Of a DNA stretch of 64,000 nucleotides, positions 31,846-52,446 are shown one piece after another (within the stretch, counting starts at the first letter, position 1; the number at the start of each line of letters is the position of its first letter). The translations under genes were made by a program, and so were the position numbers. The notes under the pieces were generated by a model, which had not been told where the DNA came from, ran no database searches, and saw nothing but the letters and a program-made list of their open reading frames with translations. The stretch comes from Mesodorylaimus sp. YZB2_4 (lineage: Eukaryota > Nematoda > Enoplea > Dorylaimida > Dorylaimidae): NCBI GenBank assembly GCA_030248295.1, contig JASANH010001278.1, forward strand, positions 737,501 through 801,500, read 5' to 3'.

Positions 31846-33423
31846 TTATTGCGGACGGTACGTAAAATGTGCGCAGTTTGAATCCTTTTTGAAAATTCTA
31901 GCTTCTTGGCTATACCATGGAAACAATTCGCATCTTTGAGACGAGCTGTACCAATTGAAACTTCGACACCAGATGTGGCCTACGCATTGGTTGGTGCAGT
32001 CTTGCAGTGGGACATTGTTCAGAGATACGATCATACTTTCGTTCATACACTTCGAAGGAACGTATGAAAAGTCTTGCTTTTCATCTAAGATGCATCAGGA
32101 ATATTTTTGTGCACACTATTTCTTTAAAAACATGTGCTGTATTTCAACTTACTGTAAACAGTGCATAAAACGAGATGTTGATCTTCGCAATTGAGATCTC
32201 CAAAAACCAGGCTTTTTGAGGGCAGCATGCATATGCACTGCTCATTGTCGTAGTGACCACCCGGGTCCGTGCTGATGCCCATCATGGTATTCGCTCCATT
32301 CAAATTGGCATCTTGCCCACCATTGCCGTCATACCACAATATGTGTGGCAAGTCTCGTGTGCCTTCAGCATTGCCTTTCGCTGCCACCCACGCCCATTTA
32401 TAAACCCCACTTGCACCAAAATATTTCTAAATAAAATTTTTTGTATTGTAAGGCAAAGTTTTTGAATATGTCGTGTCAGTCATGCATATCGAGTGTTGTT
32501 CAATTAGCCCTCAGAATGAAAGCATAAATGGTGCCCACTAGGCTACGACCCGCAAGCCTAGCGGCTTGAGGCGTCTGCCTCTCACGCTGGGTGCGCACTA
32601 AGAGGGGAGGGCTTGACTCCCGCCTCGATACAAAATGATTGTCAAATATGCGTTCCTTAGCCCCCGAGTGCGCTGTGTAGAGTTTGGCTATGGATAAAAT
32701 ATGACATGACATGACATGACAAACCCCTTAGAAGCGATTTCCTGTGCATTGCTCTAGTCAGATAAGGTGAAAGAGAAAACATGGAAGCAGTCACTTTAAG
32801 AGGAGAACGATATCAGGACCAGTAAACATTTTTCGGCGTAAAAATCGAATAAGCTCACAAGACCGCCTGTTCTGCTGAGCCACCTGATGTTCCTCCTTCT
32901 TACCCGAAAACTCTAGCTTATAAGTCGACTAACAATTGCGATCCAGGAGGTTCATGATTTTACATGTCTTGCACCTGCTCAATGGTTTGCGCTGCCCAGT
33001 TTTATCTAAGAAGATCACAGCAGAGGCAGTGACTTAAACACAAAACCTTACTCTTACCCCAAACGAGTTGTAAATTGCGACCGCTTCGCTAAAAGTGTGC
33101 ACTTGGGCCAACGTGCCTCCGGTGAGCTTACAAATGTCAAAAGCTTCCTTCCAAGTGGCCACAGTATAGGATACTCCGTTCAGACTCATGGTTGGCTTGC
33201 CAGGAATTTTTGCCAAGTAAAAGCAACGACCGCCATTCACCGTGCCATTGTACGCGTTCGTGCACTCAATCACGAAAGCGGTTTGAGAAGAGTAGCACTT
33301 TTGGCCTGCACACAAAGTAATGTATAATTGTGATTTGAAGTTGGAAAAACCTTAATTACCTCGGCCAAGGTACAAAGGACTAAAAATAAAACATAGGAGA
33401 TAAACAAGACTGCCTCTTGTCAT
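31846..33423 (-). CDS. Secreted C-type-lectin-like + PAN/Apple protein, copy A (274 aa)
   Basis: Exons in coding order: 33423-33360, 33305-33058, 32426-32153 and 32084-31846 (64, 248, 274 and 239 nt; phases 1, 0, 1). Residues 1-21 are a signal peptide (MTRGSLVYLLCFIFSPLYLG). Exons 2 and 3 form one C-type-lectin-like domain: GGRCFYLA, then DICKLTGGTLAQVHTFSE in the first half. The second half has VAAKGN, WYDGNGGQDANLNGAN, EQCICM and FGDLNCEDQHLVLCTVY. The classical EPN/QPD and WND calcium-sugar motifs are absent. Exon 4 is a six-Cys PAN/Apple domain (C..DCTNQC, WCRSFNWYS, RCELFPW, NCAHF). Such proteins usually act outside the cell in adhesion, carbohydrate or protein binding, or immune defence; calcium-independent binding is the likelier mode. 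It is one of five related loci in 21 kb. Confidence 0.85.
32535..32720 (+). repeat. SINE-B copy with (ATGAC)n tail, in copy A intron 2
   Basis: It contains GGCGTCTGCCTCTCACGCTG and a B-box variant (GGGCTTGACTCCCGCC), shared with 5137-5290. The body TTGGCTATGGATAAAATATG is followed by four ATGAC units ending at about 32720. The pentamer tail is typical of LINE-mobilised SINEs. It lies in the intron between exons 2 and 3 of lectin-PAN copy A, on the opposite strand. Confidence 0.65.
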
Positions 33424-34719
33424 TTTAGAGGAGTTTTATTCCAACCAATGCTTATGTGCTAAAAATTTTTCCTTTCTGGTCATACTTTTTAGAACCACGG
33501 CAAATCATGATTGAAGTTTTGCTTGTCTCGTAACTGTTGGATACTGATCGCTCTATTCAGGAGCGACTCTTTCGCTTTTAGTCCATTCTTACTACACATT
33601 TGGGCTAAGGTACTGTTAGCTGATACAGCTTGTTCGAAGAAAGCATCATCGCTCACTGCTCTTCGGGATCATCTTTGTGCTTCTTCGAGCCAATCACCTG
33701 TTTTTGCTACTACTTACCTTCTTTGGGAGAGGTAAAATAGATATATGTGCATTTAGAATTGGGAGCTGGCGCCAGGAGACACCGAGAAGCCCATAAATTC
33801 ATCCTATTACATTTACGAGCGATTGTACTTTGGGCAAGCTTTTGTAATATCTGGTATAAAAAAGAGCAGAGTACAGGACAGCAAGGCAGCCTTTGATATA
33901 TCTGATAATTGCAGCAGAGCGTCTAGCCAGGATGGGCTCTTTTACTGCCTCTTCGTTCGTCTTGGTAAACTATGCATTTTCGAAACAGCCTCCACTCCAC
34001 CATCGAAGCGAATGTCGCCTCTCGCTACTGTTTGTGACCTTTTCGAAAATGTGCGCGCGGTCGCGAGAGTAGGCAGCGCACATTTCACAGCAAATATGTA
34101 ATGTACCCCTACAGGGTGCGGCATATATTCTGTCTCATCATAACTGTTGAAATCCTTCGCTCGGCCGAAACGGTTCCTAAGCCAGAACTCATAGATTGCA
34201 CCAAGGAGGGACAAGGCAGAAACGGTGTTGTTCCACTCTTAGTTTAAAAAAAAGTAGAAGTAAGCTCGAATCTATTCCTTTGATCGACCAAATCCCACAA
34301 ACCTTTTGGTGGTCCCGAATTAGGACCGAAGCGAGCCTAAAGCGGAATGAGTGCGCTTTTTTTAAGAATACCCTTTTCGAGTGTTGAGCTGAGCTTTAAG
34401 CGAAATTTAGAAGCATTTAGCCGCGGGGAACTCTGCAAAGTCAAACAAAATTCAAAATAGATCGCTCTCTTCCTAATTTTGAGACACTGAGAAGACTTGG
34501 GGCATAGATGTTCCGGATTTGGGCGCTTTACCCTTTACCAAAATCAATCGAAATATGCTAAAGTGTCATAGCGTTGCATTTCTTTGAGAAACGAAATGTA
34601 TCAAAAGCAAAAATATTTAAATTGGATCGCAAAAAATACAATGTAGTATCTATTTTCTAGTAGCACAGGCCTCGACTGCAGTTGGCGGTTAGTATATGGC
34701 GGGAATTCAAAATTTAACC
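33424..34719. other. Upstream flank of lectin-PAN copy A
   Basis: It should contain the copy A promoter. No gene or clear repeat was identified. Short frames (33511-33735, 33823-34101) show no domain. Confidence 0.45.
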
Positions 34720-34776
34720 GACCCGGCCGACCCTGGCTAATTTCGGAAAGCCGAGTGCAAAAAGCCCATCAGTCGC
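34720..34776 (+). repeat. MULE left terminal inverted repeat
   Basis: It begins GACCCGGCCGACCCTGGCTA and ends CATCAGTCGC. It pairs with 37996-38051. The outer dozen bases differ more than the inner 40. Confidence 0.7.
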
Positions 34777-34979
34777 GCGACCACTTCCAGTGCTGGTCGC
34801 GCAGCTAGTGCGGGGGGAGGGGGGGGGGGGGTCGCAGCCACTTTTCGTGCCACAGCCGCGGACTTTGGTTCGCTTCGCTTTTTTCGTATTTGTGTTCGAT
34901 GACGCAAAAGTAGAAACTCTTATGTTTTTTACTGGGCTCCCTCGAATACATATTAGTGAATCCTGTCGGGTCAGAAAAC

Positions 34980-35240
34980 GATTTTTTTGTGGTTTTTCGC
35001 TTACTGTACCATGCAAGACGAAAGAAGAATTTTTGGAATGGATGGAGGAGTTCAAGCGCGTTAGAAAAATCGATTGGAACAAACCGAATACTCAACCAAA
35101 TGTTACAAGATACGTGTATTGCCAAAAATTCGTTTGCCATAGTTCGAGCACATATAAGAAAGATGGACGACCAATTCACGATCCGCGGAACAGAAATAGC
35201 TTTTGCACTTCAAAACAGGGTTGCCAGACGCTCAAAGTGA
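34980..35240 (+). pseudogene. MULE transposase N-terminal fragment
   Basis: The frame contains KTKEEFLEWMEEFKRVRK, then TRYVYCQKFVCH, then KKDGRPI and a Lys/Arg- and Cys-containing end. This resembles the zinc-binding (FAR1/FLYWCH-like) N-terminal region of invertebrate MULE-type transposases. After about residue 150 of the open frame the similarity stops, so it is a fragment. Confidence 0.45.
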
Positions 35241-36889
35241 ATCCCGTCGCACGTGACTCTAAAAACCTTCACAAAACCTTCATCACTTATCCAAAAGCCG
35301 TCAATAATTCCCTCACAAAAAACGCTTGCGGTATCAACGAGCTGGAATCACAGCGAGGCCAGACAAAGGGAGCACCAAGCTTTCACTGAACGGCGCCTTG
35401 CTAGCTGCAACATTTCTTCGATAGAATCTAATGGCTCATAAGCATCTTCAAAAACAAGATTAGTACCTCCGGCTTCTTCAACCTCAACATCAGTAGCGCC
35501 TATTTCAGAATTAAACATTTTCCATTTTGGCGCAATAAGGGGGCTGAGCACCAGGAACTTTAAACCCGAACCTTGAGAACAAGACAGAATCTACATACTG
35601 CGTCACACACGAGTCCATGACGCGCTTTTTTAGATGAAGATTAACAGAAGTAAGTAGTACCCTTAAGTGTATGGTGAAGCAAAAGTCAAGAATATATTTT
35701 CAACCCCCATCCATATGGAAATACACATAAAAACTTCTTGCTTGGGCGATATGGCCCATATCTACCCGACCCTTGGTCCTGGAATGATCCAAGAAATATC
35801 ACAATGATCCCGAGATAATGAGCTATCGAATTTTATATTTAAAGTTCTCCTAGGTCCCATCATGCGTGAGATCCTGCCAGATTCCATCATTCGTGAGATC
35901 CCGTGGTGAAAACTCAGATTTCTTCGCAAAAAACTTGGGCTTACACTTGAAAAGGGAAAACAAACCTCAAATGATAAATTCACCAGAGATGCTCCTTGGT
36001 GTGCAGATGCTACAATATGCATATGCTGCATGCATTATTAATGCATCTGGAGGAGACAATTGCAAGGGCCCGAATTTTTTTAGCATTTTTTTGGGCCATG
36101 CTCGTCTTATGAGCTGGATTCTCGTATAGGATCCGTTTTTTCCCCACTGCTATTTTTGTCATACAGAAAAATTGGCTTGTTGTAGCGACGCAATAGATTC
36201 GTAAAGGTCATCCAGGCACAAAAGCGTGTTGTTTAGAAAAAATTAAGTCACCTGATTCTTACTAGTAATCTCACAATTAGAGTATGGATATATTGATTCG
36301 TCCCCTTTATAGTACAGATAGTAAAGCTGTGTATACAAAGAAAAAAGCTTGAATTCAGGGAGAAAGCCATGCACTTGCAAAAAAATTGGGACCGATAACG
36401 GGCAGCTGATCGATTTGGTGCTTTTTTTGCCTAGTGTAGAAGGTGCTTAAGAAAATCCCTTCATACCTCCACAAAATGGCGAAAACCTTCACCAAAACCT
36501 CCACTGACCAGTCCCCTCCACAAAAACCTCCGCTAGGCCAAAATCCCGTTAAAAATGACGGGAAACCTTCACATACGGCAACCCTGCTTCAAAACTGAAC
36601 GCTACGGTAAGACGCCACTGACCTTTATTTTGAATATTTTTCGCCAATTTTTCGTGTTGGCGAGTAGCTGCAGAGCTGGCACTTGGGAAAGACAAGGCAC
36701 CGGCTGATTCATTTTTCCATCATTCCGTGAACTGCTACCTGCAGCAGATCACCAGCCAGCTGTTCAGTCTGTGTCAGAGTCTGTCAGCACTTCAGCGGCA
36801 GAATTGGAACAAATGGACCTAATGGTCGTCGATTAGAATGAAGGGGATGGAATTGGAGAATCAGAGAAAGAAGAACGCAACCAACCTCG

Positions 36890-37232
36890 AATGAAGGAAT
36901 TGCGTTTAGAGTTCTCGAAGTATTTGGACGAACAATGCAAACCTGGTAATTGGGATGAGAATTTTTTGATGGCATTCGAGAAGTTTGTGAAGAGGACCAA
37001 AACCATGTCAACGGCTGCGTTTTCAAGCTTTGTGCTATCGTCAAATCGCGTTCGATCTGGTCGTACCATTCGTTTTCAGCCAACATCTATTGCTCGTCGA
37101 CTAACTGGAATCACTCGGGGATCCCAGCGTTTGCCGAGTGGTCGTCCTTCGAATTTACCAAAGAAACGAGCTGCTTTTAAGCGGCCTCATTCCTTATCAA
37201 CGAATGTAATGCAAAATCGTCCAAACGCTTGA
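36890..37232 (+). pseudogene. MULE transposase C-terminal fragment
   Basis: A 113-codon frame with LDEQCKPGNWDENFLMAFEK, then RSGRTIRFQPTSIARRLTG, a RLPSGRP segment and a basic end NVMQNRPNA. The RxxPTSIARR ... SGRP block is typical of the tail of this transposase type. The region upstream on the same strand (36780-36890) is broken by stops. The same element's catalytic core is missing. Confidence 0.5.
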
Positions 37233-37995
37233 CATTGTTCTGATTATGCATGTTATGATATGATGTCTCGCCACTTTTTCTGACGCAAATGGAAATTGCG
37301 TAGCGGTTGAAATTAACTGAAACATGAGCGACGCATTTTTAAGCAGACAGTACAAGCAAGACTCACGCAATACAAGCTAGTCCTTCACAGTGAAAAAAAA
37401 AGCTTGAAAGAAAATTGCAGAGTACAATCATACGACAGCTTCACATACGATACATGCCAGCAATGCCGCGTCATAAGACTATCATTTCTGGTAACGAACT
37501 GATAAAAGTTACATTGTTGTCCCCGGCCAGGCACAACCACTAACTCCGAGCTTGCAAATCAGATTCAGCCCCTGCAGTACTTATTTGTCAAGGCACTGCG
37601 ACAGAAGATCCATCATTCCGTCGTGTAAATCCTCGGCATAATTAAAATGGGCTGCTCAAAATGGCCAGTCGATTTGGAAATGTAGTCAATTGCTTTCGAA
37701 GTGGGCACAATTGACGAAGCATTTGACTTTGGCAAATAAACAATAAACTTTTTCAAAAAGTAGCTTGGACGCAACGAAGAGGCACAGATCCGGATTTTCT
37801 TGGAACCCGCACTGTATTTCCTGTGGTATGGGCATCCGCCAAAGATGATCTAAGCACTTAGATGATCTTTTTCTATGGCATACAACTGCGCACGTAAAGC
37901 GGACGAACATGCCGCGAGCGGACACACACAGGGAGCGCTTTGCGACCACGCACCCGGTTTCGTTGCGGTCGCAAACTATCGCGAGCGGGGGCAAA

Positions 37996-38051
37996 GCGAC
38001 TGATGGGCTTTTCGCACTCGGCTTTCCGAAATTTGCCCGACCCAGACGGGT
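37996..38051 (-). repeat. MULE right terminal inverted repeat
   Basis: GCGACTGATGGGCTTTTCGC followed by ACTCGGCTTTCCGAAATTTG and a GACGGGTC end, complementary to 34720-34776. Confidence 0.7.
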
Positions 38052-38152
38052 CCTTCTTAGTTCTTCTTAGTTCTTACTTTACTGCAATCCCAAGCGGCCA
38101 AAGCGCACTGACAGGGCAGACATGACAATTGACAAAAAAAAGGAAACAGATG

Positions 38153-38395
38153 TCACACAGAAAAAGACTTAAAACAAATATTCGTCATAAAAACACGCAA
38201 TGATGATAAGGCGATATCTTCTGGCAAGTCATTCCATAAAATCTTTGCAGAATGTTCAAAAGACTGTCCGTAAGAGACCGTTCGAGATTTCGGCAACACC
38301 AAATGATGACTTGCAGTATCTCTTTGACTAAAACGCTGACCAGAAATCGATTTGTGAATAAAATTTGAGTTATTGTTATTAAGCGAAATCAAATT
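38153..38395 (-). pseudogene. LINE C-terminal fragment, minus strand
   Basis: The minus-strand frame reads SLNNNNSNFIHKSISGQ, then VLPKSRTVSYGQSFEHSAKI, then LWNDLPEDIA, the usual end of LINE ORF2 proteins (…W N x L P …). It abuts the plus-strand LINE that starts at about 38404. Confidence 0.6.
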
Positions 38396-38403
38396 TTATC
38401 AAA

Positions 38404-40252
38404 TCGTCCTTCGAAAATGTCGACTCGCCGGCCTCCTCTTGGACAGCTTATCGCGGTCTGTCGCCTGACGAACGAAAAATTCCTGTGTTGTCCGACGAAA
38501 ACGATCGGCCATTTATTTCCGCCGCTGAGAAAGCCGATGCCTTGAACCAACATTTCTCCAAAAATTTCAATGATGTTTATTATGGCGAATTTCAACACCC
38601 TTTTATTGACATAGACGATTTTAGTGATTATTCTGAGTGAGGCGTTTATTGCTCGAGAAATCCGTCAGCTGAAGAACAATAGCGCCCCAGGAATCGATGG
38701 CCTGACGATTCTTATTATCAAACGAATTTCACCGAGTATCGCCCCGGCTCTGGTTATTGTCTTCAATCGATCAATCAATGACGACATTTTCCCCAATTAT
38801 TGGAAGCGCGCCCAGATCACTGCCATTCCGAAACCCGGGAATAAAAATTCTGTCAAGTCGTATCGTCCAATTTCGCTGCTTTGTATTGTCTCTAAAATTT
38901 TGGAGCGGCATATGGATAAACTACTTCGCTCATATTTGTCATTATCTCCAAATCAGCACGGTTTCTGCAAGCGGCGTGGCACGAATACTGCGTAAATACC
39001 TACAACACAATTCATCCATTATTCTTTGAACTCGAGAAATTCAAAATTCGTTTTTGGAATATTCTTGGATCTCCAGGAAGCCTTCGATCGTGTGCCCCAC
39101 GTATTATTATTAGATCGCCTAAAATCCGATCGTCGCATACCATCGAAAATTATAAGGTAGTTGGAATCCTATTTATCTGATCAATCTCAACACGTCGTAG
39201 TTGACGGTTCTGCTTCTTCACCTGCGAATGTGTCCTCAGGCATGCCCCAAGGCAGTGTTATTGGTCCGACATTATTTATCGCCTTCCTTGATCCGCTCCT
39301 ACACGAATTCAAATTGCGATTCCCGCACTTTTTATTGCCTGCTTACGCTGATGATACGTCGTTATCTGCACCGCTCAAAAACCTCAAAGAAGCCGAGAAA
39401 TTAATTCAGCCTGCCTTGGATTTTATCATGATGTGGTTTGGTCAAGCTGGATTAAATATCCACGTGGAAAAAACGCAAGCTATTATTTTTCGCTATGGTC
39501 ACAACCGGCTCAGTCAGCTCCCGAATCTGTTTTTGCAGGGCAGCAAGCTGGAATTTGTCGATCAGGTAACTTACTTAGGTTTTACGTTTTCTGGTGACCT
39601 CAAATTCAGTGAGCACGTGTCCATTGTTGCTCGTAAATGCAGCGCTATGATTGGTGCTTTACGACGCAGACTCGGTAAAAATGTGCATATTTGGATCCGT
39701 TTATAATGCATGCATACGTTCTGTACTGGAGTATGGCTGTGCTGCGTGGGATCCTGTTTTGCAATCTGATGTTGATGAGTTGGAGAAGGTACAGTTTTAC
39801 GCACTGCGGTTGTACTTAAATGATTTCACCATTTCTTATTAGGAAAGTCTTGAGCGTGCCGGTTGGATGTCTTTATCTGAGCGTAGACGTCGTCTGAAAG
39901 TGGTACAGTTTTATAAATTTTATCACGGGTATCACGATTTCAATAATCGATTTTTTATTCACAAAGATGTAATGTACGTGCAAGTGATAGGCGCTGTGAT
40001 ATCGATCATCATCTAATTGTGCCTAAGCCAAGCTTTGAGTCTTATCGTCAATGTTTTTTCATATTCTGGTGTTTTGCTTTGGAATAATGTGCCACTAAAT
40101 GTCGCCTGGGGAACGTATTTTTGGTTTTACCGTAATATCAACATGTGCTTATAAATTTCTCATATTTTATTTTAATGACTACGTCTTCTGATCCTCGAGT
40201 GCACTCTTACGTGTTTGCTCAAAAGTAAAGATTGATTGATTGATTGATTGAA
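38404..40252 (+). mobile_element. LINE fragment with reverse transcriptase and (TTGA)n tail
   Basis: 5'-truncated, 3'-complete non-LTR element. Frames read KNNSAPGIDGLTILIIKRIS, then IPKPGNKNSVKSYRPISLL, then HGFCKRRGTNTA, GMPQGSVIGPTLF and PAYADDTSLSA (the YxDD active site), then VDQVTYLGFTFSGDL. The C-terminal part (LEYGCAAWDP, then LERAGWMSLSERRRRLKVV) and a GATT/ATTG simple-repeat tail at 40228-40252 follow. Several stops and frameshifts break it (near 38639, 38993, 39703 and 39841). It belongs to the same family as the remnant at 29112-30165. Confidence 0.85.
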
Positions 40253-40254
40253 TT

Positions 40255-40860
40255 GGCTAGCAGATATAAGGGCACTGTTTGTTCCTCGACGCTTCACGAA
40301 ACCGTGCTGATGATCAGATAAAGACAAAAAGGGGCTGATCAGTCGATTAATGTGACGCTCGGGAAGTTTCGTTTCGAAGTGAAATCGGCTGATATGATTT
40401 CAGACTGTTCTTGTCGCCAGTTTTTGGGATCGGGGTCACTTCAGCGATCTTCCAAGAGTCAGGGAAACATTCTTCATCGAGCGATCGATTGAACAATAGG
40501 GTTAAAGCGGGCGTGATCGAGGGGGCGATGTTTTTGATAATGGGAACCGTCAGGCCATCATATCCCGGGGCGCTGTTTCTTTTCAATCCACGGATGTCCC
40601 TGAATACAGAATGTTCACCGATCATAAGGTCAATACTGTGACCGTCTTCATCAGATGCCGGATGAAAAAAACCATAGTCAGAGTTATTGAGGCTCATTGC
40701 AAATTGATTGTTCAATGCCTCAGCTTTCTCGCCTGGACTTAATAAAGAGCGATCAAATTCGTCGACCAAGGCTATAGTTTTAAAGTCGGATGGATTGAGC
40801 GATGGGTCACGATTGGCGGATATCCACGGCCAGATGGGTCGTCCCATGCACTAAAGTATT
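40255..40860 (-). pseudogene. LINE reverse transcriptase fragment, minus strand
   Basis: Minus-strand frames encode LSPGEKAEALNNQF, KRNSAPGYDGLTVPIIKNIA, then IPKTGDKNSLKSYQPISL, and after a small deletion the equivalent of HGFVKRRGTNSA. Same family as 38404-40252, in opposite orientation and directly abutting its tail. Confidence 0.75.
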
Positions 40861-41049
40861 TTTAAAATACAAGCTTTGGGCACTGCTGGTTAGAAATAGC
40901 TGAAATAGATCTTACGCCGAAAAAATTATTGGTTGCTATTAATTCAATGGTTTTATGAATTTGGGCCATGTACCCCTCCCGATTTATTGCAAACCCGAAA
41001 ACTTTCTGTCAAGTTGGCGCGAGTTTATTTATTGTTATTCATTATGCTC

Positions 41050-41272
41050 CATGGATATCCTGACACAGACGCTAGATAAAAGCAACGGCCGCCATCCACC
41101 ACACCTTTGTATCTTGTCGCACATTCATTTATGATATTGTCTGATTTGCACAGCATTTCTGACCTAAAAGCAACTGCATCATGCGGGATGACCTGAAACC
41201 CTTGTCCTCACCAATGGCGCAATATGGCGCGGAAACGAAAATAAAAATGAAGTTGTAAATTATCTTGCCCAT
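41050..41272 (-). pseudogene. Lectin-PAN copy E, truncated pseudogene
   Basis: Exon 1 (41272-41212, 61 nt) is intact: MGKIIYNFIFIFVSAPYCAI, with a phase-1 donor as in the other copies. Exon 2 starts at 41163 (GQKC). After GQKCCANQTIS a one-base shift creates a TAA, and the other frame resumes the family pattern (NECATRYKGVVDGGRCFYLA). Similarity ends near 41050. Exons 3 and 4 were not found. Confidence 0.75.
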
Positions 41273-41410
41273 GGATGCTGGCGATTGAGTAAAGATGCTA
41301 CGTAATAATCACTGTATATGCTGCATTTTCAGAATGGCTACAGACATGGCGTTCCAAATTTGCAGGGCAAAGGGACAATCACTCTAGCTTAGAGCTTTTA
41401 CTGTCCTCGC

Positions 41411-41653
41411 TTATATCGTTTGCGCTACATTGCTGCCACTTGGTCGGCCCGCCTTGTTCAGGTGGTCTGCTTCCCCGTTCAGATAGCGGCCGCACAAGCT
41501 GCGGTCTGCTCTTGACCGCGTTGTGGCCTGAACCCCCTCTATTCCATAGATTCTGGCTGGCTGGCTAATTTGCCCTCGGCCAATCACCTTGCCCATCACT
41601 GTCACCATGGCACCAGCAACAGCGACACCGAGGAGAAGAGCTATCAGATTCAT
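41411..41653 (-). CDS. Possible small secreted or anchored protein (80 aa)
   Basis: From ATG 41653 the frame begins MNLIALLLGVAVAGAMVTV, a good signal peptide or anchor. About 60 polar, basic residues with a single Cys follow. No homologue, promoter or poly(A) signal was recognised, and a chance open frame in a GC-rich patch is possible. Confidence 0.25.
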   Translation of the reverse strand: MNLIALLLGVAVAGAMVTVMGKVIGRGQISQPARIYGIEGVQATTRSRADRSLCGRYLNGEADHLNKAGRPSGSNVAQTI

Positions 41654-42054
41654 ATCCGCTCTCAAGCTTCCTATTTTGGACCTAGTTTAGAGTACCTTTT
41701 GATTGAGGATGTGATCTATATGATGGGTTTTGTTAATTTTACCATGAGGAGTGCAAAATCAGACAGCTGCTCTCCAAACACAAGTCTCATCAAGATACTG
41801 TCAGAATGCTCCTTTCTATACCACCAGTCTTTTAGCTTTCTGCTTGTTCATTCTAAGATCTTTTTTTAACATATTGGCGAGCACTGTTGACATTTTAGAT
41901 TCTCTATTATTGATGCAGGTGCCTCCTGGCGCCGCGTCTGGTATAGTATTTGGGTCGGTAATAAATGTGTGAGCTCTGCGAGACTGATGCAGCGCTTCAT
42001 CGTGCTCAATACCATACCTTGAACAGCGTGAAGTTCAAAAGTTAAAGCTCAGAA

Positions 42055-42115
42055 ATAATGGTATAATCAACGATATCATATCGTTTTATAAGACAAATAT
42101 CGTTTATCGTTAACG
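42055..42115. repeat. ATCG-rich palindromic patch
   Basis: Repeated CGATATC / ATATCG words (ACGATATCATATCGTTT, then ATATCGTTTATCGTTAACG) like the patches at 10060-10130 and 13540-13620. Confidence 0.4.
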
Positions 42116-42610
42116 CTAGGCTATGTCAGAGGCTGCTCAAATCAGGTGAAGAGTAGGGAGGGACTGCAAGATAGGATGAGAAAGACATGGCACTATGTAG
42201 ACGCACGGAGCCATGTACTAGACCTTCTTCAGAGACCTACCACTACAATGTAGCCGCTTTTGTCTCTTTTGGTCTGCCACGTCATCGTGAAGCCTGTGTA
42301 GGCAAGAAATGGCAGGCGTAGTAAGCTAGATTCGACATCGGGTACCCAATACGCGCAGTATTGATTCCGCAACACAGTACTCCCAGTTCTGTAATATCCA
42401 GCACTAGTGTTTAGAGTAAAATACAGTTAGATTTTACAAGACCGCACCAGGCACTGACACGATTTAGATAGACATACCAAGATACCAATCGAAGGTGATC
42501 AGTGCAATTGACGAAAAGCAACAACTATAACAAAAAACCTATGTCCTCGCACGGGTATGGACTGCTGGACGATGTTGTAGAGTGGTGACGTGCGATCACA
42601 ATCACGCAGC

Positions 42611-42740
42611 CTGACGTCATGTCATGCCATACTTTATCCATAGCCAAGCACTATAGAGCTCACTCGAGGGGTAGGGCGGAGGGCGAGGAGCTGTCGCCTG
42701 GGTGTCGCCGATAGTTTCATACCATGGCCACTCCGCCTAC
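42611..42740 (-). repeat. SINE-B copy (3' part)
   Basis: Read on the minus strand, CTTGGCTATGGATAAAGTAT then GGCATGACATGACG matches the tail end of the 32535 copy. The upstream part is diverged. Confidence 0.55.
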
Positions 42741-42744
42741 ACAT

Positions 42745-43065
42745 CCAAGACTCACGCAGGCGGCTGTGAGCCGCTTCTACACGCGTTGAAGTAACTCCAT
42801 GTGTGCAAGGAGAGATCATCCAGTCCGCACTCGTAAGTAAGAATGATCATCTGACTGGCCAATCGTGGAGTGCCTCTATATAAGCGATCCTCAGTCAGTC
42901 CAGGAAGTACAGTAGTCATGCCATTCTATCAGAGCCATAGAAAAAACTTCTCAACTCAACTTCTCGGACCTCTCTGGCGCTGTCTAAGAGGATATCGGGT
43001 GCACACTAGATATATTGTGCAGATACTGTAGAATGCACAGCGGCATCTATCACACTGATGCCGCG
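42745..43065 (+). repeat. TATA-containing dispersed repeat, possible solo LTR (copy 2)
   Basis: It shares ordered words with 10610-10960: GACTCACGCAGG, GCCTCTATATAAGCGATCC, TAGTCATGCC, GTGCACACTAGAT and a GGCATCTATCACACT end. It sits directly beside a SINE-B piece. Confidence 0.4.
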
Positions 43066-43273
43066 AAAGGCCAAGATATAACAGAATTATTATTTTCAGC
43101 TCATTTTTATATCATCTTAAAAGGCGTTCATTCCCATTTTCAATGAAATGCTCAGGCACTGCTTGAAACGATGGTTTCGTTCTCAGACTGGTTTGATCGG
43201 TTTTTATCAATGACTGTGTTTACTTTGTATGTGTCCCATGAGCTTGCTTCCGGCGTTTGGTTAAGAATAAAAC

Positions 43274-43297
43274 ATGATGACGATGATGATGATGAAA
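43274..43297. repeat. GAT microsatellite
   Basis: A short (GAT)n/(GAC) run: GATGATGACGATGATGATGA. Confidence 0.85.
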
Positions 43298-43802
43298 AGG
43301 TCACATGATTTTTGGTGAAAATGGTATATGACGCCTCCAGTGGCAATATTCTGTGCAGTGCATCCAACTCCTTGGTTTCACAAACTACCAATCGCTGTGA
43401 GCGCAGCAGACAAAAGAAAATCGAGTCCGACGAGTCAGAAGGAAGGTACTAGCCCCAATTAGTCTATTTCTCTGGCTTCCTCTGTCTTTGACTCTGGCTT
43501 ATTAGTGGTTCTAGCGAGCGCGGGGTTCAGCCCCCCAATATATAGCCCATCGTTCCGCTGCGACCGTTCTCGTCGCTCTCCATCGCGACTGGGCGTTGCA
43601 GCTGTGCGCCTTCTCCCACCATTCCACGTCCACCACGTAAGAGTAAAATATCAAGATTTTGACTTTGTCGTATAGCATTCATAGAATGTCTCTTCTAGTC
43701 CAGGCAGCCTTGCGCAATGTCAATCCTGCTTTTTCTCCTGACGAAAAGCTTTTCATTTTCTCTACAAGCAGCCGCAGTAAGTTGCATCTGGCATGATCAT
43801 GA

Positions 43803-43858
43803 CCCATGCTCACCTTAAAAGGTATACGTTCATGTGATACCTTTAAAGTGAGCATGGG
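43803..43858 (+). ncRNA. Hairpin of miRNA-precursor size
   Basis: The 5' arm CCCATGCTCACCTTAAAAGG and 3' arm CCTTTAAAGTGAGCATGGG pair over about 24 bp with one mismatch and one bulge, around a loop of about eight bases. The 56-nt total fits a pre-miRNA, but a foldback repeat relic is equally possible. I did not find a second copy in the window. Confidence 0.35.
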
Positions 43859-44124
43859 ATACCTTCAACATACACGGGCAGCATACGTATCCCTAAGCAG
43901 AGCTGATAGAGCTGGCAGGGTTACGGGAATTCAGTATCTGTAAGCAGTTATCTTATAAATTACTTTCCTATTCGCCATTAAAAACTTACTTTGCGCAAAG
44001 TTAAGTCACGAATTCGTTTTAGCGAGTACAAAATAAAGTAAATCAATCAATAGCCAAGAATGCCGAGTGATATCACACAGAGTAGGTGCAAGCAAGAATA
44101 CCACAGTCCGCCAGATACTTTATA

Positions 44125-46632
44125 TCAGGGCTTGTATGTGAAGTGTAGGCAAGTCGAATCTCTCTTGAAATTTGTTGTCTCGGGGCTATACCATGGAAAC
44201 AACTCGCATCTTTGGGTGGAACTATACCAGTTAAAACTCCGACACCAGATGTAGTCCGCACATTCGTTAGTGCAGTCTTGCAAGGAGACGGCGTTTTTGA
44301 ACGCAATCACAGCTTCGCTCATGCACTTGGACGGAACGTGTGAAAGTTCTTGCTCTCCATCTGCGAAAAAGAACGTGGCAGTTTTAGCTGGCAGAAAAGA
44401 ACATAAGAACTTACTGTAGACAGAGCATAGGACAAGGAGCTGTCTATCGCAGAAGTAGTCCCCAAATACTAATGTGCTATTCGCTCTCATATGCACGCAT
44501 TCCTCATTCGCGACGTGTCCAGGGGTGTTTGACCTGATTCTTAGCATAGTATTGGCTCCATTCAAAGAACCGTCGGGCGCGGCATCGCCATTGTACCATT
44601 GAACACTTGGAGCATCTGCCAATCCGTTGGGTTTGCCTTCTGCTGCCACCCAAGGCATTGTATCGATCGTGGAAAAATCTTTCTGAAACACAGCTTGAGC
44701 TTTACTTCACTAACTGACCGTAGGCCAGCCTGCCGCACAGTGCACGAAACCACGGAGCGACTCAACGCCTCATCGTCTAGGCTACCCAAGTGGTTCAGTG
44801 AAAAGTTGACGCAAGTGGATGGTGAAGGAATGGCTGATGTTTAAAATCCCTCCTCCTTGACCTCCGCTTTTCAGTCAAATCACAGCTTTTAGATGTGGAC
44901 AGCCGAACACCAAGATAGAAGAGAAGAGAAACTTGTTTCTGAGCATTTGTGAATGGGACTGGGAAAAGTTTCAAGTGGTCCTTTCACCAGACTGGACTTT
45001 CAGTACATAGTTATAATGTACAGCATATAGCGGATATCATGAGCCAGAGCAGCGACCATCGCCCTCGCCCTCAGCAGGACCACTCGGAATCAATCTCGCT
45101 TACAGTCCATCGTAATTTTAAGACGGTCATGGCTGCATTGTTGGGTGGAGCTTAATTCGGGCTTAAAAATTCGAGGCGCTCCAAACAGCGGCGGTTCGAG
45201 CCCTTGTCCAGCGAGGTTTAATGAAGTGATTTTATGTTATGATTGATGAAGTGATGCATTTTCATGAAAATCAACGGCCCCAATAGGGTCCAGACCTGAC
45301 ACGGGTGGGACCCTACCCGATAAGGAAACGTGGTCAGTCCGCAGACGGGCCAGCGTTTTGGGCAAGCTCGAATTAGAGCTTCAATGGCATAATAATGCTG
45401 TATAGTAGAACAATGAACCTTTATGTTTATGCCCGTCAGCGCTCATTAATGCTTGAGACCATGATAAAATCTATCTAAATAATGGGCCGGGTTTGAGCTT
45501 GGCCAAGTTTCGAAATTAAGCGGGTTATGACGGGTCAGAAAGTCAAACCCCCCCCCCCCCCAAAAATTGTATTACCGATCCTGATTTGCTGCTCCTATCG
45601 CATCAAAGTACGATGACGCGGTAAAGGTCTAAATTCAGGTTCAATAGGGGCAAACAAATACGAACAACGAGGAATGTACATTAATTTCGTCGCAGATCCC
45701 CTCCCTCCAAGGCTTATTTTCCTGCAGTGCTGCGAAGCCTACAGATTTCGCTCATGATCGACTGGCTGAGTTTATCAATGCGATGCCAAACCCTGCACTT
45801 CCAGTCATCTGGGTCCCGGCTCTGATGGGTGGGTTCGGCCCGTGAAGCGGGCTAGATTGGTCTACATTTTCAGCCCTCAGGCCTGGATGCACCCGATGCA
45901 ACCGATGCATGTAATTGCAAAGACAAGTGATCTAAGATATTCTACTTTACATAAATTAGCCTCTGATCTGTCTCATCAACTCAAACCTCTCCTCTAATGT
46001 CGTTCATATTGGTCGATCTCATTCTATTAGGATCTATACAAGATCTATTAATTTTGCCATACCAGTTCTCCTAAAATTGCCTTTACCGCCTGAGGGCTCA
46101 AAGTACACGTCCGTCAAAAAGGAAAGTTGATAAAGGAGCACCAGAGGGAGTCGAAAAAACGATGTTTTGGTTGGACGACCTTTACCCTTGCTGGCTATCC
46201 CGTATATCCGCTAGGAAATTGCATGCCGCTAGTAGATCAGACACTGTGTTAAAAGTCATTGTTCTTACCCCGAAAGAGTTGTAAATGGAGGTTGCTTCGC
46301 TAAAAGTGTGCACTTGGGCGAATGTGCCACCAGTGAGCTTGCAAATGTCAAAGCCATCCGCCCAGTTGGCGATAGTGTAGAACACTCCTCGCAGGCTCCT
46401 GGCTGGTTTGCCTTGCACATTTGCCAAGTAGAAGCAACGGCCGCCATTCACAGTTCCGTTGTACTTGGTGGTGCATTCTTTTATGAAAGCACTTTGCGAA
46501 AAGTAACATTTCTGACCTGCAAATAAAGTCAAAAAGTCAAGTCAGTTGAAAAGCAAGGCGATTTTTACCTGTACAACTAAAAATTAAACCAAAGAGAAAA
46601 AGCAACGCATTAATTCGATCAGCTTTATCCAT
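44125..46632 (-). CDS. Secreted C-type-lectin-like + PAN/Apple protein, copy B (271 aa)
   Basis: Exons in coding order: 46632-46569, 46516-46269, 44682-44415 and 44360-44125 (64, 248, 268 and 236 nt; same phases as copy A). The signal peptide is MDKADRINALLFLFGLIFSC. Lectin-like domain: GQKCYFSQSAFIKECT, GGRCFYLA, FDICKLTGGTFAQVHTFSEA, then PWVAAEG, WYNGDAAPDGSLNGANTM, EECVHM and FGDYFCDRQLLVLCSVY. PAN domain: C..DCTNECADYIWCRSFNWYS, RCELFPWYS and TCLHFTY. Exon 1 and exon 2 lengths equal those of copy A, showing recent duplication. Intron 2 is longer (about 1.6 kb) and holds a tRNA-like repeat and a C-run. As in copy A, no EPN/QPD or WND motif is present. Confidence 0.85.
45135..45260 (+). 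repeat. tRNA-like repeat in copy B intron 2
   Basis: GCGGCGGTTCGAGCCCTTGTC carries a good B-box (GGTTCGAGCCC), and a weak A-box-like stretch lies about 45 bases upstream. The T-rich body with ATGTTATGATTGATGAAGTG suggests a SINE, not a tRNA gene. Confidence 0.35.
45547..45562. repeat. Poly(C) tract
   Basis: About 15 consecutive C bases in intron 2 of copy B. Confidence 0.85.
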
Positions 46633-48865
46633 CTTAGATAATTTAATTACTGTTTTCACATAGACTTCCGCAAAGCAACTTCTTCTGGCACTTCACCTAG
46701 ATCTGTACGTGTACCAAAGAATCAAATCTCTGCCCAATTGATTATTTTGATTGATCTACAAAATATCCTGGCAACTGTTGCCATTGGACCCGCGGGGAAA
46801 AGACGCCTACTTCAGAGAATACAATCGCGCATGACTGGAACCTACTTATTGACGGATTCGCTAAAAAAGAGTCCGAATGTAATTTTCATTTACAGTAGTC
46901 GAGCCAAGTATTTAGCCTAATCGGTGTCCCCTGTCTGCTGAGTCATTCAAGAGTGGGACAGTTAGCGACCGTGGGTCTGCTGTTGGAACAATCATGCTGG
47001 TACTGTTTGCCTGTTCCATGACGACAAGCGCCAAATGGTCTCGAACTCGTCAAGTTCGAATTAAACTTTCGCCCATCACTAATGGGATGCTCTCGCTGGA
47101 GCAGGATTCCCCCCCCCCCCCCCCCCCCCCCCGATCTTGACATTTGTGTCAGATATTTGGGGTAGAAGTCGCACTGGGAAACTGGAGGCAGATGGAGCAC
47201 AGACGTCGCAAAAAGTTTGAAAAATGTTTGAATGCATGAAATCATCAAATATCACATATTTGGAAATTTTGAATTGTCATAGCAAAAAAATACAAAACGC
47301 ACCTCAGCTATACAGCTTCGATTGGTGTTGCACATTTAAGAAGACATCAGATACTATATCTATGGGGACAAATTTCAGATTTGCGGCAGTCAGGCCAGCA
47401 TGTACAGACGCCAGGCCTGAACCAAAGTCTCGCCTCGACAAGTTGCTAGACCAAAGAGTTTGCCACACTCTAGGTTGCTCACTTGACTACAAAATACATT
47501 CTGGAAAGAGTGAGCGGCAACTGACCATGTGATCAGAAAAAGCTTAGGGCAATCAGCCAAGCTCGACTGCACTACATTAGATTTGTAAAACTGAGAAAGC
47601 ATGCGCGGTAGCTATGGCACAAGCTCTGGCTGGTGCCTGAGCCCGGGCATCCAGGCATTCCTCCTGGTTGTAGGATCTAGAGGCATCCACCCGACGAGTC
47701 AGTCTCGCCTGAAGAAAGTTTATCTACCCGCTAGCCAACGAAGGCAAGCCAAGACACTGCTCCGTAAAGGCCTCCCATAAAGGCCTGTCTTGGTGGACAG
47801 GAGGACGTCCAAAGCTTGCTCGGTCTGGTTTTTGGACTCACGTTGGGCTGACATGTCCAGCAAACGCTCTCTACACATTGTACGTTGTCCCCACCACCAC
47901 AGCACAGTGTGAGACTGAAACAGCTGCGAGTATACAGTGTATGAGACTACTGAGAAAGAGACAGTATCTCACAGTATAATAAATCTGGAAGTAAACTCTA
48001 CTTTTTTTGGAACACTAAAAACTGCAACTGGTCAAAAAATGGCACGCAGTTTTTCTGGTTACAGTATGTCAGTATTTCAGCTGCTACAAATTCCTGCCAG
48101 GTATGTGAGCAGTGAACAAAACGCGCATCAAAACAGAGGCACATATACAGTCAAGTCCACTTACAGTCACGCCAGATGATGTCAAAAAATTGAATTTTCA
48201 CTCTTGGCGGGGATATGTCACAAACGGTGGGACCTATTACAATTTTTAAAATAAGTTCGATACATCATCATCTTGGGATCACTGTAATTTATTTTCGGTC
48301 ATTCCAGGACCAAGGGTAAGGGACATATGGGTGCTATCACCCAAGCAACACGTTTTTATGCGTACTCCTATAGGGATGGGGTAAAAAATATTTTTGACTT
48401 TTGTGTCACCATACTCGTACACTCATGGGGTACATACTACTGAGCACAAAAAATCATGAATTTAATGTTTTTACTTGGCAAGGTCTTGACCGATCCTTGC
48501 AGACACCCTATCTTAAAAGCTGGCTACCATTAAACTCACTCAAGCAGCCAGAAAATGGTGTTCCTTAAATGCCAATGTAGCCACAGATGCTATGAAACTG
48601 CAGGTTAAAAACTAATGCAAAACTTTTAAGTTCAAAACTTCAAAACTTGTGTCGAAACTTTATAAATGAAACCATAGAGCGACTCAACATTAGATAAGAC
48701 ACAAGAGATGTTTGTAATGTACATACACACACAACATAAAAGTTCGTTTATTGCAGCTTGGTATTTGAAAGCTCTTGAAATGGTGGTTTTTTAAAATTTT
48801 TTAGGTCACACAAAAACGATCTGTGCATAATGCCACAGCTGGCCACACCGTCAATCACCGTCAAT
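46633..48865. other. Spacer between lectin-PAN copies B and C
   Basis: No intact gene. It contains a poly(C) tract (about 47109-47132) and a fragment of the MITE terminal repeat at 48149-48215. Short frames are not supported. Confidence 0.45.
48149..48215 (+). mobile_element. MITE fragment
   Basis: ACAGTCAAGTCCACTTACAG, followed after a gap by TTCACTCTTGGCG, matches the left end and an inner word of the 7231 and 10986 copies. The middle is deleted. Confidence 0.5.
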
Positions 48866-48869
48866 CAAA

Positions 48870-49075
48870 TGCTTATAATCCACACTGTGATATCGAATTC
48901 TGCATGGTAACTCTTCGGGGACGTAGGTGTAATGGCCACAGTCGGGCACATTTCATGCGAGATTGGTGGTATCCACGAAAACAGATCGCATCGTTGTGTG
49001 TATAAATAATAATTGAACCCGCGACACCACAGCGCGGCGCCACACTTGCCCGTGCATTCAGTGTCACTCAAGGTG
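48870..49075 (-). pseudogene. Lectin-PAN copy C, PAN exon relic
   Basis: The minus-strand frame contains TECTGKCGAALWCRGFNYY, then TQRCDLFSW, matching the Cys and aromatic positions of the PAN exon in copies A, B and D. Upstream on the same strand the exon start is broken by stops, and the last Cys motif is lost. No lectin exons were found beside it. Confidence 0.65.
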
Positions 49076-50304
49076 TACTGTACGTCTCAACCATTTTTTC
49101 GTTCATGCGAATGTTCGAAATAAACTGTCGTGAAATAAACAGCTGCTACTGTAAGTGTTTAGGAAGAGCAAAAGAAAAAGTCATTTTTATTAAGTCTCGC
49201 GACTCCAGATCTTTGTTTAAGAAACGATTTTGGAGCTTTCAGAAACCAATATCTCAAGAAAATGTCAATATCTTTTTCAAAGATGTGATTTGAATATTCA
49301 TATCTATCTTTATTCAAGTTCGTATAAACACCTGACTTTGGTTGACCGCACTCTCTACCACCATGCCAGGCTTGGCTTGGTAACAAACGAGGTCAGTAAA
49401 TACTGTACGTACAGCATGTTCATGGGGCAGTTTATTTCTTTAGCTCCCCAATTCAAGCCGCCTAGCAGGGCAACATTAGCTGGGCATTTTTGCTTGCGCG
49501 GCTGAGATCAATTTTGAAATCGACTGGTAGTAGTTTAATTATTTTGGCTCGGTACATCACGACCATTTACGAAGCAAACATAAAATAATTACCCTGTGCC
49601 TACAATTAACGGGATTACTGCAAGCATTTTATTCAATTAGCGTGTCCATATGTTGGACATGGTCTCTTGAGTAGCTGGAATCAATTCTTTTCGTAGATCG
49701 AAAGTTGCTGATTATTTTGTCGATTTGGTGACCATGCCATACATTGTGACAATACGACACAATAGTACGAATTGTATGCTACTGCACTCTACTGTAACGA
49801 AGCTATGAATCTACCCTGCTCACCTCTCTGTCCACGCGTAGCAACACGACTACACAGTGTCGAAGAGAGTCAGGTCGATTCTTGTCATCACAGTTTTGAG
49901 AGGCTTTCTGTAAAGGGTCGACCCGGAGACTGCCAAGTTTCAATTTTTGACCATCTCCCCCTCCCCCCCACAATTTGAGTTTGATAGGTGAAAGGTAGAA
50001 ACTTTTTGCGACAGTTATCTGATTCCTTATTTATTTGCAAACCTGCTGATATGTCGTCAATCAGGAAAGACCAGAAAATTAGTGAGTTATGGCTGATATC
50101 GCCTAGGCACTTTCAAAAAAAGTTTTTTCGGATAATCCCGTGGAAATCGAGTTTGCACAAAACAGCCTTGTTGCGTCACTATCACCACTCATGCATCGAA
50201 TTCACTCAGAAAAATGGGGGATCAAAAACTTAAGCTTGGCAACTCATGTTTCACATGGGTCGAACCTTACAGAAAGCCTGTCGAACGGGTCTTCGATTTC
50301 AGGA

Positions 50305-52446
50305 ATGTCTATGGTTTCACAGTTCGTTTTTTTAATTATTGTCGTAAGCCCTATCAGCGGTAAGCAATCAAAGAATCCAATCCCGCCAATAAATTTTAAA
50401 AAGCTACTTCAGGCCAAAAATGCTACCCGACGCAAGAGGCCTTTGAAGATGAATGCACAACTTTGTATAAGGGAGTGGTAAACGGTGGACGATGCTTTTA
50501 CCTGGCTTTTGGTGTCCCCAATTTTCCATCACTGGTCATGAACGGATTCAATTACACCATATCGACTTGGGTGGACGGATTTCAAATATGCAAATTCCAA
50601 GGCGGAACATACGCCCAAATACACACGTCCAGTGAAATAACATCGATCAGTAATTCCTTCGGAGTAAGTCTACGATAATGGGTGGTTTCTGTTCAGCGTA
50701 AACCAACGAGCGACCATGATCTTTTTTTAAAAGTTTTTGGGCTTAAGCCCAATTTGCCTAGCCAGCCGGCAGCAAATCTAAGCAAGGCTGTGAGGGGATC
50801 GGCACGCACAGCAGCGTCCCTCTGCGCGTCTCCTCAAGGAGCACCTCCACGCGAGGGCATAGACGTGAAAAAGTGGGTGGTAATTTTTTTTTCTCAGTTT
50901 CTTTAAGATTCAACAACATATTTGATCTTATTCGTGATTTTTGAAATAAAACAGTGCTTCCGCCAAATAGCCCATACCTATCTATGTCAGGTCAACAATA
51001 GTGTGGCATATGTTTGAAATTTGTATGCTCCCATTTTGGTGCTGAACAATTAGACGAGTCAATGTCAAGAGTTTTACACTCACCGGCATTCAGGATGGCA
51101 ATAAAGTTTGGACAATAAATTAAAAAAGAGAGGCGCGATAAATTTTTATTGATGTCTGAAAATTAATATATACCAATCGTCGATGAAAATTTTTTGAAAC
51201 ACAGAAAAGTCAACACAGATGTGCAGTACTTCTTTGCTAAAACATGTAAGTATTCCTGTCAAATTGTCCTAACGTAGCTATCACTAAAAATTTCGAGCAA
51301 AAAATCATATTTCACCATTTAAAATAGCCCAGGACGAAGAGTTGAGTTTTGGGGACCTGAAAATTGACAATGACTCGTTTCTGGAATACCTTTCGCCGAT
51401 TTTTGTGGTAATTTTACTCACAAATTAAATAAATATGCAGAAACACTAAAAGAATTGATTAGGATGATAAACCAGCGGTTACAGTATGACCTGCTGCCTG
51501 CGCATCACAAGAAAAAGCGCGCGGTGCGTGCAATTCAACTTTCTCCGAAAATTCGATTTTCGCATTTCAATAAACGTGGATATGAATCTGAGCAAACCGA
51601 AATATATGTCAACCTTATTTTACAGGGGTAACACATCACAGTATACTCACTTTTTTCAATGTTACCCCCTCCCCCCGTGCAAGTATAGCTTTAATATTCA
51701 CCAAAAATGACTATAGGAAGTCTCGTTAAATTTCAATGCCAGTTCAATTGCAATTTTGCGATTAACTGCTGAAAATCGGGAGTGGGGTATTGTTAGACAT
51801 CGTATGGCAGTAAAAGTAAAAGACCGAAACAATGACTTATTGCAAATCAATTCCAATGAAAAACTGTTTCAGCAATATTTCGATACAGCAGATATTTTGC
51901 CAACTGCGAAGTGGACTTGGATTGCTGCAGCACGAGACTCCGGAACAGATTTTAATGATCCTCACAGCACCAAATATTACGATGGCAATTTTCTTCCTGA
52001 TCATAATTTAACAGCTGCAAACACGCTAATGGGTCGCCCGAAGCACCAAAAGGGATTCTACGATAATGCCCGCTGCATCCACGCATGGAATAGACCATTG
52101 GTGTTCGCAGACTATTCTTGCAAGAGGCAAATGATGATACTGTGCACTGTGTACAGTAAGTTTAAAGTGATGGCCAGTGCATTTGACAAGAGCAGCAGCC
52201 ATTTCAGACGAATTTCAAAATTTCACATACATCCCGAATACTTGCGTGTTCGAACCAATCATCGAGTCATTCAATAATGTGATAGATGTGGGAGGATGCG
52301 CCACCCACTGCGCCAGTCACATGTGGTGTCGCAGTTTCAATTGGTACCCTTCGAGCCAGAAGTGCGAGTTATTTAGTTGGACCGTGGCTGATGCAGGGAA
52401 TATCGCCATCGTCGCTGGCTGCGCTCATTACGAATACAATCCGTGA
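50305..52446 (+). CDS. Secreted C-type-lectin-like + PAN/Apple protein, copy D (275 aa)
   Basis: Exons: 50305-50359, 50413-50663, 51873-52155 and 52208-52446 (55, 251, 283 and 239 nt; phases 1, 0, 1 as in A and B). Signal peptide MSMVSQFVFLIIVVSPISG; the second Met at residue 3 is an alternative start. Lectin-like domain: GQKCYPTQEAFEDECT, NGGRCFYLAF, FQICKFQGGTYAQIHTSSE, then TWIAAARDSG, YYDGNFLPDHNLTAANTLMG, ARCIHAW and FADYSCKRQMMILCTVY. PAN domain: GGCATHCASHMWCRSFNWYP, KCELFSW and GCAHYEYNP. It is the most divergent intact copy and lies on the opposite strand. Introns 1 and 3 are tiny (53 and 52 bp), which suits nematode splicing. Intron 2 (1.2 kb) contains a SINE-A piece. Confidence 0.85.
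50745..50862 (-). repeat. SINE-A fragment in copy D intron 2
   Basis: CACGCACAGCAGCGTCCCTC, then GCGCGTCTCC, then GAGCACCTCCACGCGAGGGC matches the family words seen at 55738-56015 and, reverse-complemented, at 62405-62750. Confidence 0.6.

Follow-up and report, generated by a model that had tools for sequence, protein, structure and literature searches.

Positions 31846–52446 of a 64,000-nucleotide (nt) stretch of the genome of the nematode Mesodorylaimus sp. YZB2_4 (GenBank assembly GCA_030248295.1, contig JASANH010001278.1, positions 737,501–801,500, forward strand; this whole stretch is hereafter the window) contain three intact genes, denoted here A, B and D, and two relics, C and E, all of one type: the intact genes are predicted to encode a hydrophobic N-terminus, followed by a C-type lectin-like domain (CTLD) and a PAN domain. 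This locus raises the question whether it is a self-contained cluster or a sample of something larger and, beyond that, what proteins of this architecture might do. We find that the window copies are a small part of a large, dispersed CTLD-PAN family with a strongly conserved gene structure, and examine below what the sequences of its members suggest about their fold, secretion and function.

Genome-wide spread of the family

A preliminary description of the window had taken the five copies for one local tandem family. This view did not survive searches of the complete assembly (145.1 Mb in 1067 contigs). The pattern NGGRCF[YF]L, characteristic of exon 2, produced 105 exact matches, and the exon 4 pattern WCRSFNWY produced 90, compared with 1 and 0 matches, respectively, for the reversed controls, which shows that the family is more than a chance recurrence of short motifs; the exon 2 matches are spread over at least 42 contigs (among the 100 matches listed of the 105). 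These counts include relics (relic C among them), likely haplotype duplicates and probably a few chance matches, and because some contigs (e.g., C168 and C803) look like second haplotypes, the number of genes may be below the number of motif matches. The protein sequence of A yielded at least 181 matches (with 141 of the 714 candidates scored), and the PAN_1 profile at least 149 (150 of 606 candidates scored), not all of which necessarily belong to this family. Two more diverged members, with the exon 2 motif in the form NGGRCFFL or DGGRCFFL and with exons 2, 3 and 4 in order, are found on contigs C171 and C164.

The phylogenetic tree of 27 modelled genes agrees with the wide dispersal. The window genes A, B and D do not group together to the exclusion of other members: A joins C40:3861 (98/77), then C32:708887 (96/93) and only then B (86/87), and D together with its neighbour in the tree, C12:805046, comprises the deepest split (under a midpoint root that serves for drawing only). 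Given that the closest sampled relatives of A lie on other contigs and that D belongs to the deepest split, the window members appear to be an old, mixed set. Five genes from contig C138 form a single group (100/99), which indicates that local duplication does occur there. Together, the motif counts and the tree rule out a self-contained cluster of five copies.

Gene models and conserved gene structure

The intact copies were spliced by hand. Gene A (33423–31846, minus strand) encodes 274 amino acids (aa), B (46632–44125, minus strand) 271 aa and D (50305–52446, plus strand) 275 aa; the nine introns are all GT-AG and in phases 1-0-1, and there are no internal stops. The interval 31846–52446 extends exactly from the last base of exon 4 of A to the last base of exon 4 of D. 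In A, exon 1, which encodes the hydrophobic N-terminus, occupies 33360–33423 (64 nt, with a GT donor); exon 2, the first half of the CTLD, 33058–33305 (248 nt); exon 3, the second half, 32153–32426 (274 nt); and exon 4, the PAN domain, 31846–32084 (239 nt; PAN_1 43.2 bits on the exon frame). In B, the four exons lie at 46569–46632 (64 nt), 46269–46516 (248 nt), 44415–44682 (268 nt) and 44125–44360 (236 nt; PAN_1 32.1 bits), and in D, at 50305–50359 (55 nt), 50413–50663 (251 nt), 51873–52155 (283 nt) and 52208–52446 (239 nt; PAN_1 40.5 bits). The profile of exon 2 scores 143, 142 and 128 bits, and that of exon 3, 117, 116 and 98 bits, in A, B and D, respectively, the three genes being the seeds of these profiles. 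Relic C (40910–41272, minus strand), delineated by eye, consists of an exon 1 (~41272–41212) and a frame-broken exon 2 (~41163 to ~40910) that matches positions 7–44 of the 82 in the exon 2 profile. Relic E (48865–49086, minus strand) is a frame-broken exon 4 that retains a PAN_1 match of 23.8 bits against a cut-off of 21.4, with the exon 4 profile match at ~48967–49074 (positions 23–58 of 77). Thus, splicing and the profile matches to the broken pieces reproduce the earlier division into intact copies and relics, and the four exons, the phases and the exon lengths that had been claimed for A, B and D proved exact.

The same structure recurs across the family. With A, B and D as seeds, exon profiles were built and run against the window and 29 loci (other loci, e.g., L028 on C159, were left out), and the resulting 122 distinct exon matches fell into 49 groups, with exons 2, 3 and 4 in order in 31 of these; the other 18 lack the full set, some of them being pieces of one gene or located at the end of a stretch. 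Thirty of the 31 ordered groups lay within one stretch each and were examined, and 27 gave complete models. When phases were left free, the best phase of intron 3 was 1 in all 30 genes, and that of intron 2 was 0 in 27; overall, 28 of the 30 genes share the gene structure. Gene C32:463467 has a GC-AG intron 2 at the usual place. The very similar copies on C168 (L016) and C803 (L017) share a changed donor after exon 2, where their relative on C314 has GT; these are either a recent decaying duplicate or, probably, two haplotypes of one gene. Among the 27 models, the modal lengths are 248 nt for exon 2 (14 of 27, the exon 2 lengths not being the true ones in four genes without an exon 1 call), 271 nt for exon 3 (11 of 27) and 236 nt for exon 4 (22 of 27). 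In several members, single open frames of ~300–340 aa that span the exons could suggest intronless genes, but the exon gaps and splice sites identify these as cases of short readable introns.

Domain composition

For the domain scans, ten members were picked from the 27 modelled genes. The PAN_1 domain (PF00024) is readily detected in all ten (E ≤ 0.1), and in the spliced proteins A, B and D it scores 36.4, 31.4 and 37.3 bits, respectively, with the cut-off at 21.4. The lectin domain is far more elusive: Lectin_C matches A (residues 71–193 of the spliced protein) at 22.7 bits, marginally over the cut-off of 22.6, and is found at E ≤ 0.1 in 3 of the 10 members and not in the other 7. Hence the Pfam check on A, B and D bears out the PAN half of the earlier assignment in all three proteins and the lectin half, barely, in A, with no Lectin_C match reported for B or D at a limit of E = 10. 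The predicted order, hydrophobic N-terminus, CTLD and PAN, is supported by the spliced models and domain matches. None of the ten members has an NCBIfam match at E ≤ 0.1. When A alone was searched against the PDB, the four best of five matches were CTLDs, all weak (best E = 0.082); the PDB matches being weak throughout, no close solved relative was found.

Comparison of profiles gives a clearer signal. The part of the 27-member alignment that covers the CTLD was compared with nine CTLD sequences from loci L001–L008 of the same genome. The global score was 37.2 (probability 86%), compared with a maximum of 13.4 among 80 column shuffles and 5.4 for the reversed profile; the local score was 36.4, against a maximum of 19.5 for the shuffles and 11.2 for the reversed profile. 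The four core cysteines pair in this alignment. Judging from these profiles, the CTLD half of the family very likely adopts the CTLD fold. Its sequence similarity to solved CTLDs (mannose receptor, tetranectin, bitiscetin, conglutinin) is weak, with the core cysteines in the same order; compared with those structures, the family lacks the WND motif, has one more cysteine, carries a PAN domain after the CTLD and, in our reading, contains an insert that separates the N-terminal hairpin from the first helix. The PAN half shares its PAN_1 profile match with the PAN/apple modules of plasminogen, hepatocyte growth factor (HGF) and prekallikrein, and, like the PAN domain of this family, apple modules have six cysteines. 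Unlike those proteins, the family has a single C-terminal PAN domain attached to a CTLD, and the gene models include no protease or kringle.

Side by side with this family, the genome encodes other proteins with one or the other domain. A dense array of Lectin_C matches, all on one strand, occupies ~899–951 kb of contig C21 of the assembly (G000; loci L004, L006, L007) and is separate from the CTLD-PAN genes. On contig C283, at ~103.5–105.1 kb (L009), four PAN_1 matches, including the best one of the genome search, follow each other on one strand; this might be a multi-PAN gene of another kind.

Cysteines, sugar-binding motifs and secretion

Thirteen cysteines, an odd number, are conserved in the 27-member alignment: seven in the CTLD half (25, 36, 49, 80, 168, 184 and 192 in A numbering) and six in the PAN domain (208, 225, 229, 235, 247 and 266). 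Eleven of these, including C80, C168 and C192, are present in all 27 rows, and the remaining two are nearly as constant (184 in 26 of 27 rows, 266 in 26 of 26). C36–C49, C80–C192 and C168–C184 fit the disulphide pairs of long-form CTLDs, the assignment being ours. This pairing would leave C25, near the mature N-terminus, without a partner and possibly available for an inter-chain bond. In A and three other rows, an additional cysteine at position 170 makes the total even.

String searches over the whole proteins found WND and QPD in none of the 27 members, EPN in one, EPD in three and QPN in one. The earlier remark that the canonical sugar-binding motifs EPN, QPD and WND are missing thus applies to nearly all of the 27 modelled members, and their scarcity makes the usual calcium-dependent sugar binding unlikely for most members. 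The maximum mean hydropathy of exon 1 is at least 2.0 in 17 of the 27 genes (9 of these 17 exons have the modal length of 64 nt); in six genes it is weaker, such low-hydropathy calls probably being wrong, and four genes have no exon 1 call. At the opposite end, 25 of the 27 proteins terminate 7 residues past the last cysteine, which leaves no room for a membrane anchor. The hydrophobic exon 1 and the missing anchor predict that the proteins are probably secreted in a soluble form.

Variation and constraint

Variation is unevenly distributed along the protein. The mean entropy is 1.95 bits in exon 3, compared with 1.28 bits in exons 2 and 4 combined (Mann-Whitney p = 6e-7, with sites taken as independent), and the peak, at positions 152–191, falls within exon 3, presumably where the ligand-binding loops of the CTLD lie. 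Among the 12 closest pairs of genes, the ratio of nonsynonymous to synonymous substitution rates (dN/dS) ranges from 0.18 to 0.43; for exon 3 alone, one C138 pair has 0.84 and another 0.16. This pattern is one of constraint with a looser exon 3 rather than proven diversifying selection.

Other features of the window

Between A and C, a reverse transcriptase fragment is recognised by an RVT_1 match (39161–39703, plus strand), and residues resembling reverse transcriptase are discernible by eye at 38615–38992 (plus strand) and at 40350–40850 (minus strand), the latter with no Pfam match. Elsewhere in the window, there are protein kinase exons at 4461–5124 (plus strand; PK_Tyr_Ser-Thr 59 bits in 4461–4811, with kinase-like residues seen by eye in the frame 4786–5124), a major facilitator superfamily sugar transporter in one 562-aa open frame at 7791–9476 (plus strand; Sugar_tr 100.9 bits), a nematode cuticle collagen gene at 15942–16322 (minus strand; Col_cuticle_N 65.2 bits) and a rhodopsin-family seven-transmembrane receptor in one long open frame at 22769–24019 (minus strand; 7tm_1 76 bits). 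No Rfam family matches the window at gathering scores. The N-terminal domain of nematode cuticle collagens has 133 matches in the genome at E ≤ 0.001, one of them in the window, which identifies the genome as that of a nematode. The exact SL1 leader has no match in the genome, which could mean either a lineage lacking SL1 or repeats missing from the assembly.

Discussion

On balance, and with moderate confidence, we favour the reading that these genes form an expanded family of small nematode glycoproteins, probably secreted and each composed of a hydrophobic N-terminus, a divergent long-form CTLD and a PAN_1 domain, that act as soluble, probably calcium-independent recognition or adhesion molecules in which the CTLD face is variable and the PAN more conserved. 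Under this reading, the protein would leave the cell in soluble form, possibly with disulphide links via the extra N-terminal cysteine; the CTLD loop surface of each paralogue would meet its own ligand (a microbial, dietary or matrix surface) without a canonical calcium/sugar site; and the more conserved PAN would dock to a common partner or hold an oligomer together. This division of labour is suggested by what is known of the two domains, by the variation in exon 3 and by precedents in Caenorhabditis elegans. Shuffling of class 1-1 extracellular modules is a general principle, and the phase 1 borders of the CTLD unit (exons 2 and 3) and of the PAN exon would fit assembly by this route, after which the gain and decay of copies may have followed a birth-and-death process.

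Of the C. elegans lectins that serve as precedents, CLEC-41 and CLEC-42 are reported to attach to bacteria and to show antimicrobial activity in vitro, whereas their paralogue CLEC-4 appears to be tied to feeding behaviour (PMC8051790), from which it follows that paralogues may differ in function. An immune role for the present family is plausible.

Several observations weigh against the favoured reading. At the level of the fold, B and D have no Lectin_C match at a limit of E = 10, although the HMMER filters drop most matches above ~0.1; a PDB search with the ten-member profile returned weak matches, with bitiscetin first (E = 0.037), a domain of a myosin-binding protein second and conglutinin third; much of the signal in the profile comparison comes from its best local match, 25 columns around the first helix; and a smaller comparison, in which ten members were set against six CTLDs, reached a probability of 25% (P = 7.6e-4). 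With respect to recognition, neighbouring sites are not independent as the entropy test takes them to be, no segment, exon 3 included, reaches a dN/dS of 1 in the 12 closest pairs (maximum 0.84), and the higher entropy of exon 3 could reflect relaxed constraint. Moreover, the median identity among the 27 proteins is 51%, so that one common function is an assumption, and the searched loci were chosen for strong matches to A, with divergent members under-sampled.

Tentatively, the family might be viewed as a diversified soluble repertoire in which a conserved scaffold (the invariant N-terminal hairpin motif, 13 cysteines, the PAN core and perhaps a covalent dimer formed via the extra cysteine) would display a variable surface of CTLD loops, for which a single exon codes in each of ~100 or more genes. 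The fibrinogen-related proteins of snails have a comparable repertoire design, with CTLD and PAN here in place of their modules.

An unlikely alternative to soluble recognition is that the proteins are structural, polymerising via PAN within the cuticle, the glycocalyx or the matrix of the gut lumen, the CTLD being a scaffold rather than a receptor. The extra conserved cysteine would fit cross-linking, and PAN modules are thought to join in protein or carbohydrate binding, according to a survey of nematode CTLDs (PMC5297725); however, ~100 divergent motif copies and variation focused on exon 3 would be atypical of a structural component, which is an argument from plausibility. A mostly neutral expansion, with copies duplicated perhaps near retroelements and one ancestral, redundant function retained, could account for the frequency of incomplete pieces (the 18 of 49 exon groups mentioned above) and for the reverse transcriptase fragment between A and C; it is improbable, given that the dN/dS values of the 12 closest pairs show those proteins to be still constrained. 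There is likewise a slim chance that the proteins are secreted effectors acting on a host, should the species be parasitic: through a C-type lectin, Trichinella larvae are reported to invade the gut cells of the host (PMC9580147), but nothing in the present analysis points to parasitism. Reproductive (seminal or egg-coat) proteins diversified by sexual selection are a very doubtful candidate as well, for although families of secreted cysteine-rich proteins that are large and turn over quickly are typical of such systems, nothing in the analysis favours this origin.

How new is the family of soluble CTLD-PAN proteins proposed here? The preliminary description did not recognise the arrangement of signal peptide, CTLD and PAN. 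The combination as such is already on record: the survey cited above reports 16 genes combining CTLD with CW, a PAN-superfamily module (PAN_3), in C. elegans but in none of six further species (PMC5297725). These class IV proteins, with 1–2 CTLDs and 1–2 CW modules, resemble the present family in that a CTLD is combined with a PAN-superfamily module. They differ in that the strong match of the present family is to PAN_1; PAN_3 scores weakly, in the exon 4 frame of D (10.7 bits against a cut-off of 21.1), and is not listed for spliced A, B or D, so that these are not CTLD+CW proteins of class IV. The numbers differ as well, with ~100 motif copies (relics and haplotypes included) against the 16 class IV genes of C. 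elegans (PMC5297725). Large CTLD families are in themselves known from nematodes, C. elegans having 283 clec genes (PMC8051790), and, according to the survey, only a small part of nematode CTLDs retain the residues thought to be essential for sugar binding (PMC5297725). The present family is such an expansion, set apart in this genome from the canonical CTLD array (C21, ~900–951 kb) and with 7 of the 10 scanned members lacking a Lectin_C match at E ≤ 0.1. New here are the PAN_1 type, the copy number, the 13 conserved cysteines and the concentration of variation in exon 3. Among the papers listed from an open-licence library, which leaves most subscription journals outside, none describes a large CTLD-PAN_1 family in its title or the start of its abstract, and no CTLD-PAN family appears in the passages available on Parapristionchus, Romanomermis, secretomes, a Trichinella PAN protein and ultra-large families.

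How nematodes tell one microbe from another is not yet settled. By combining a rigid gene structure with a single exon that varies more than the others, a large family such as this offers a direct test bed for a gene-encoded recognition repertoire in nematodes; should the function turn out to be structural, the family would still document a large radiation of CTLD-PAN_1 proteins.

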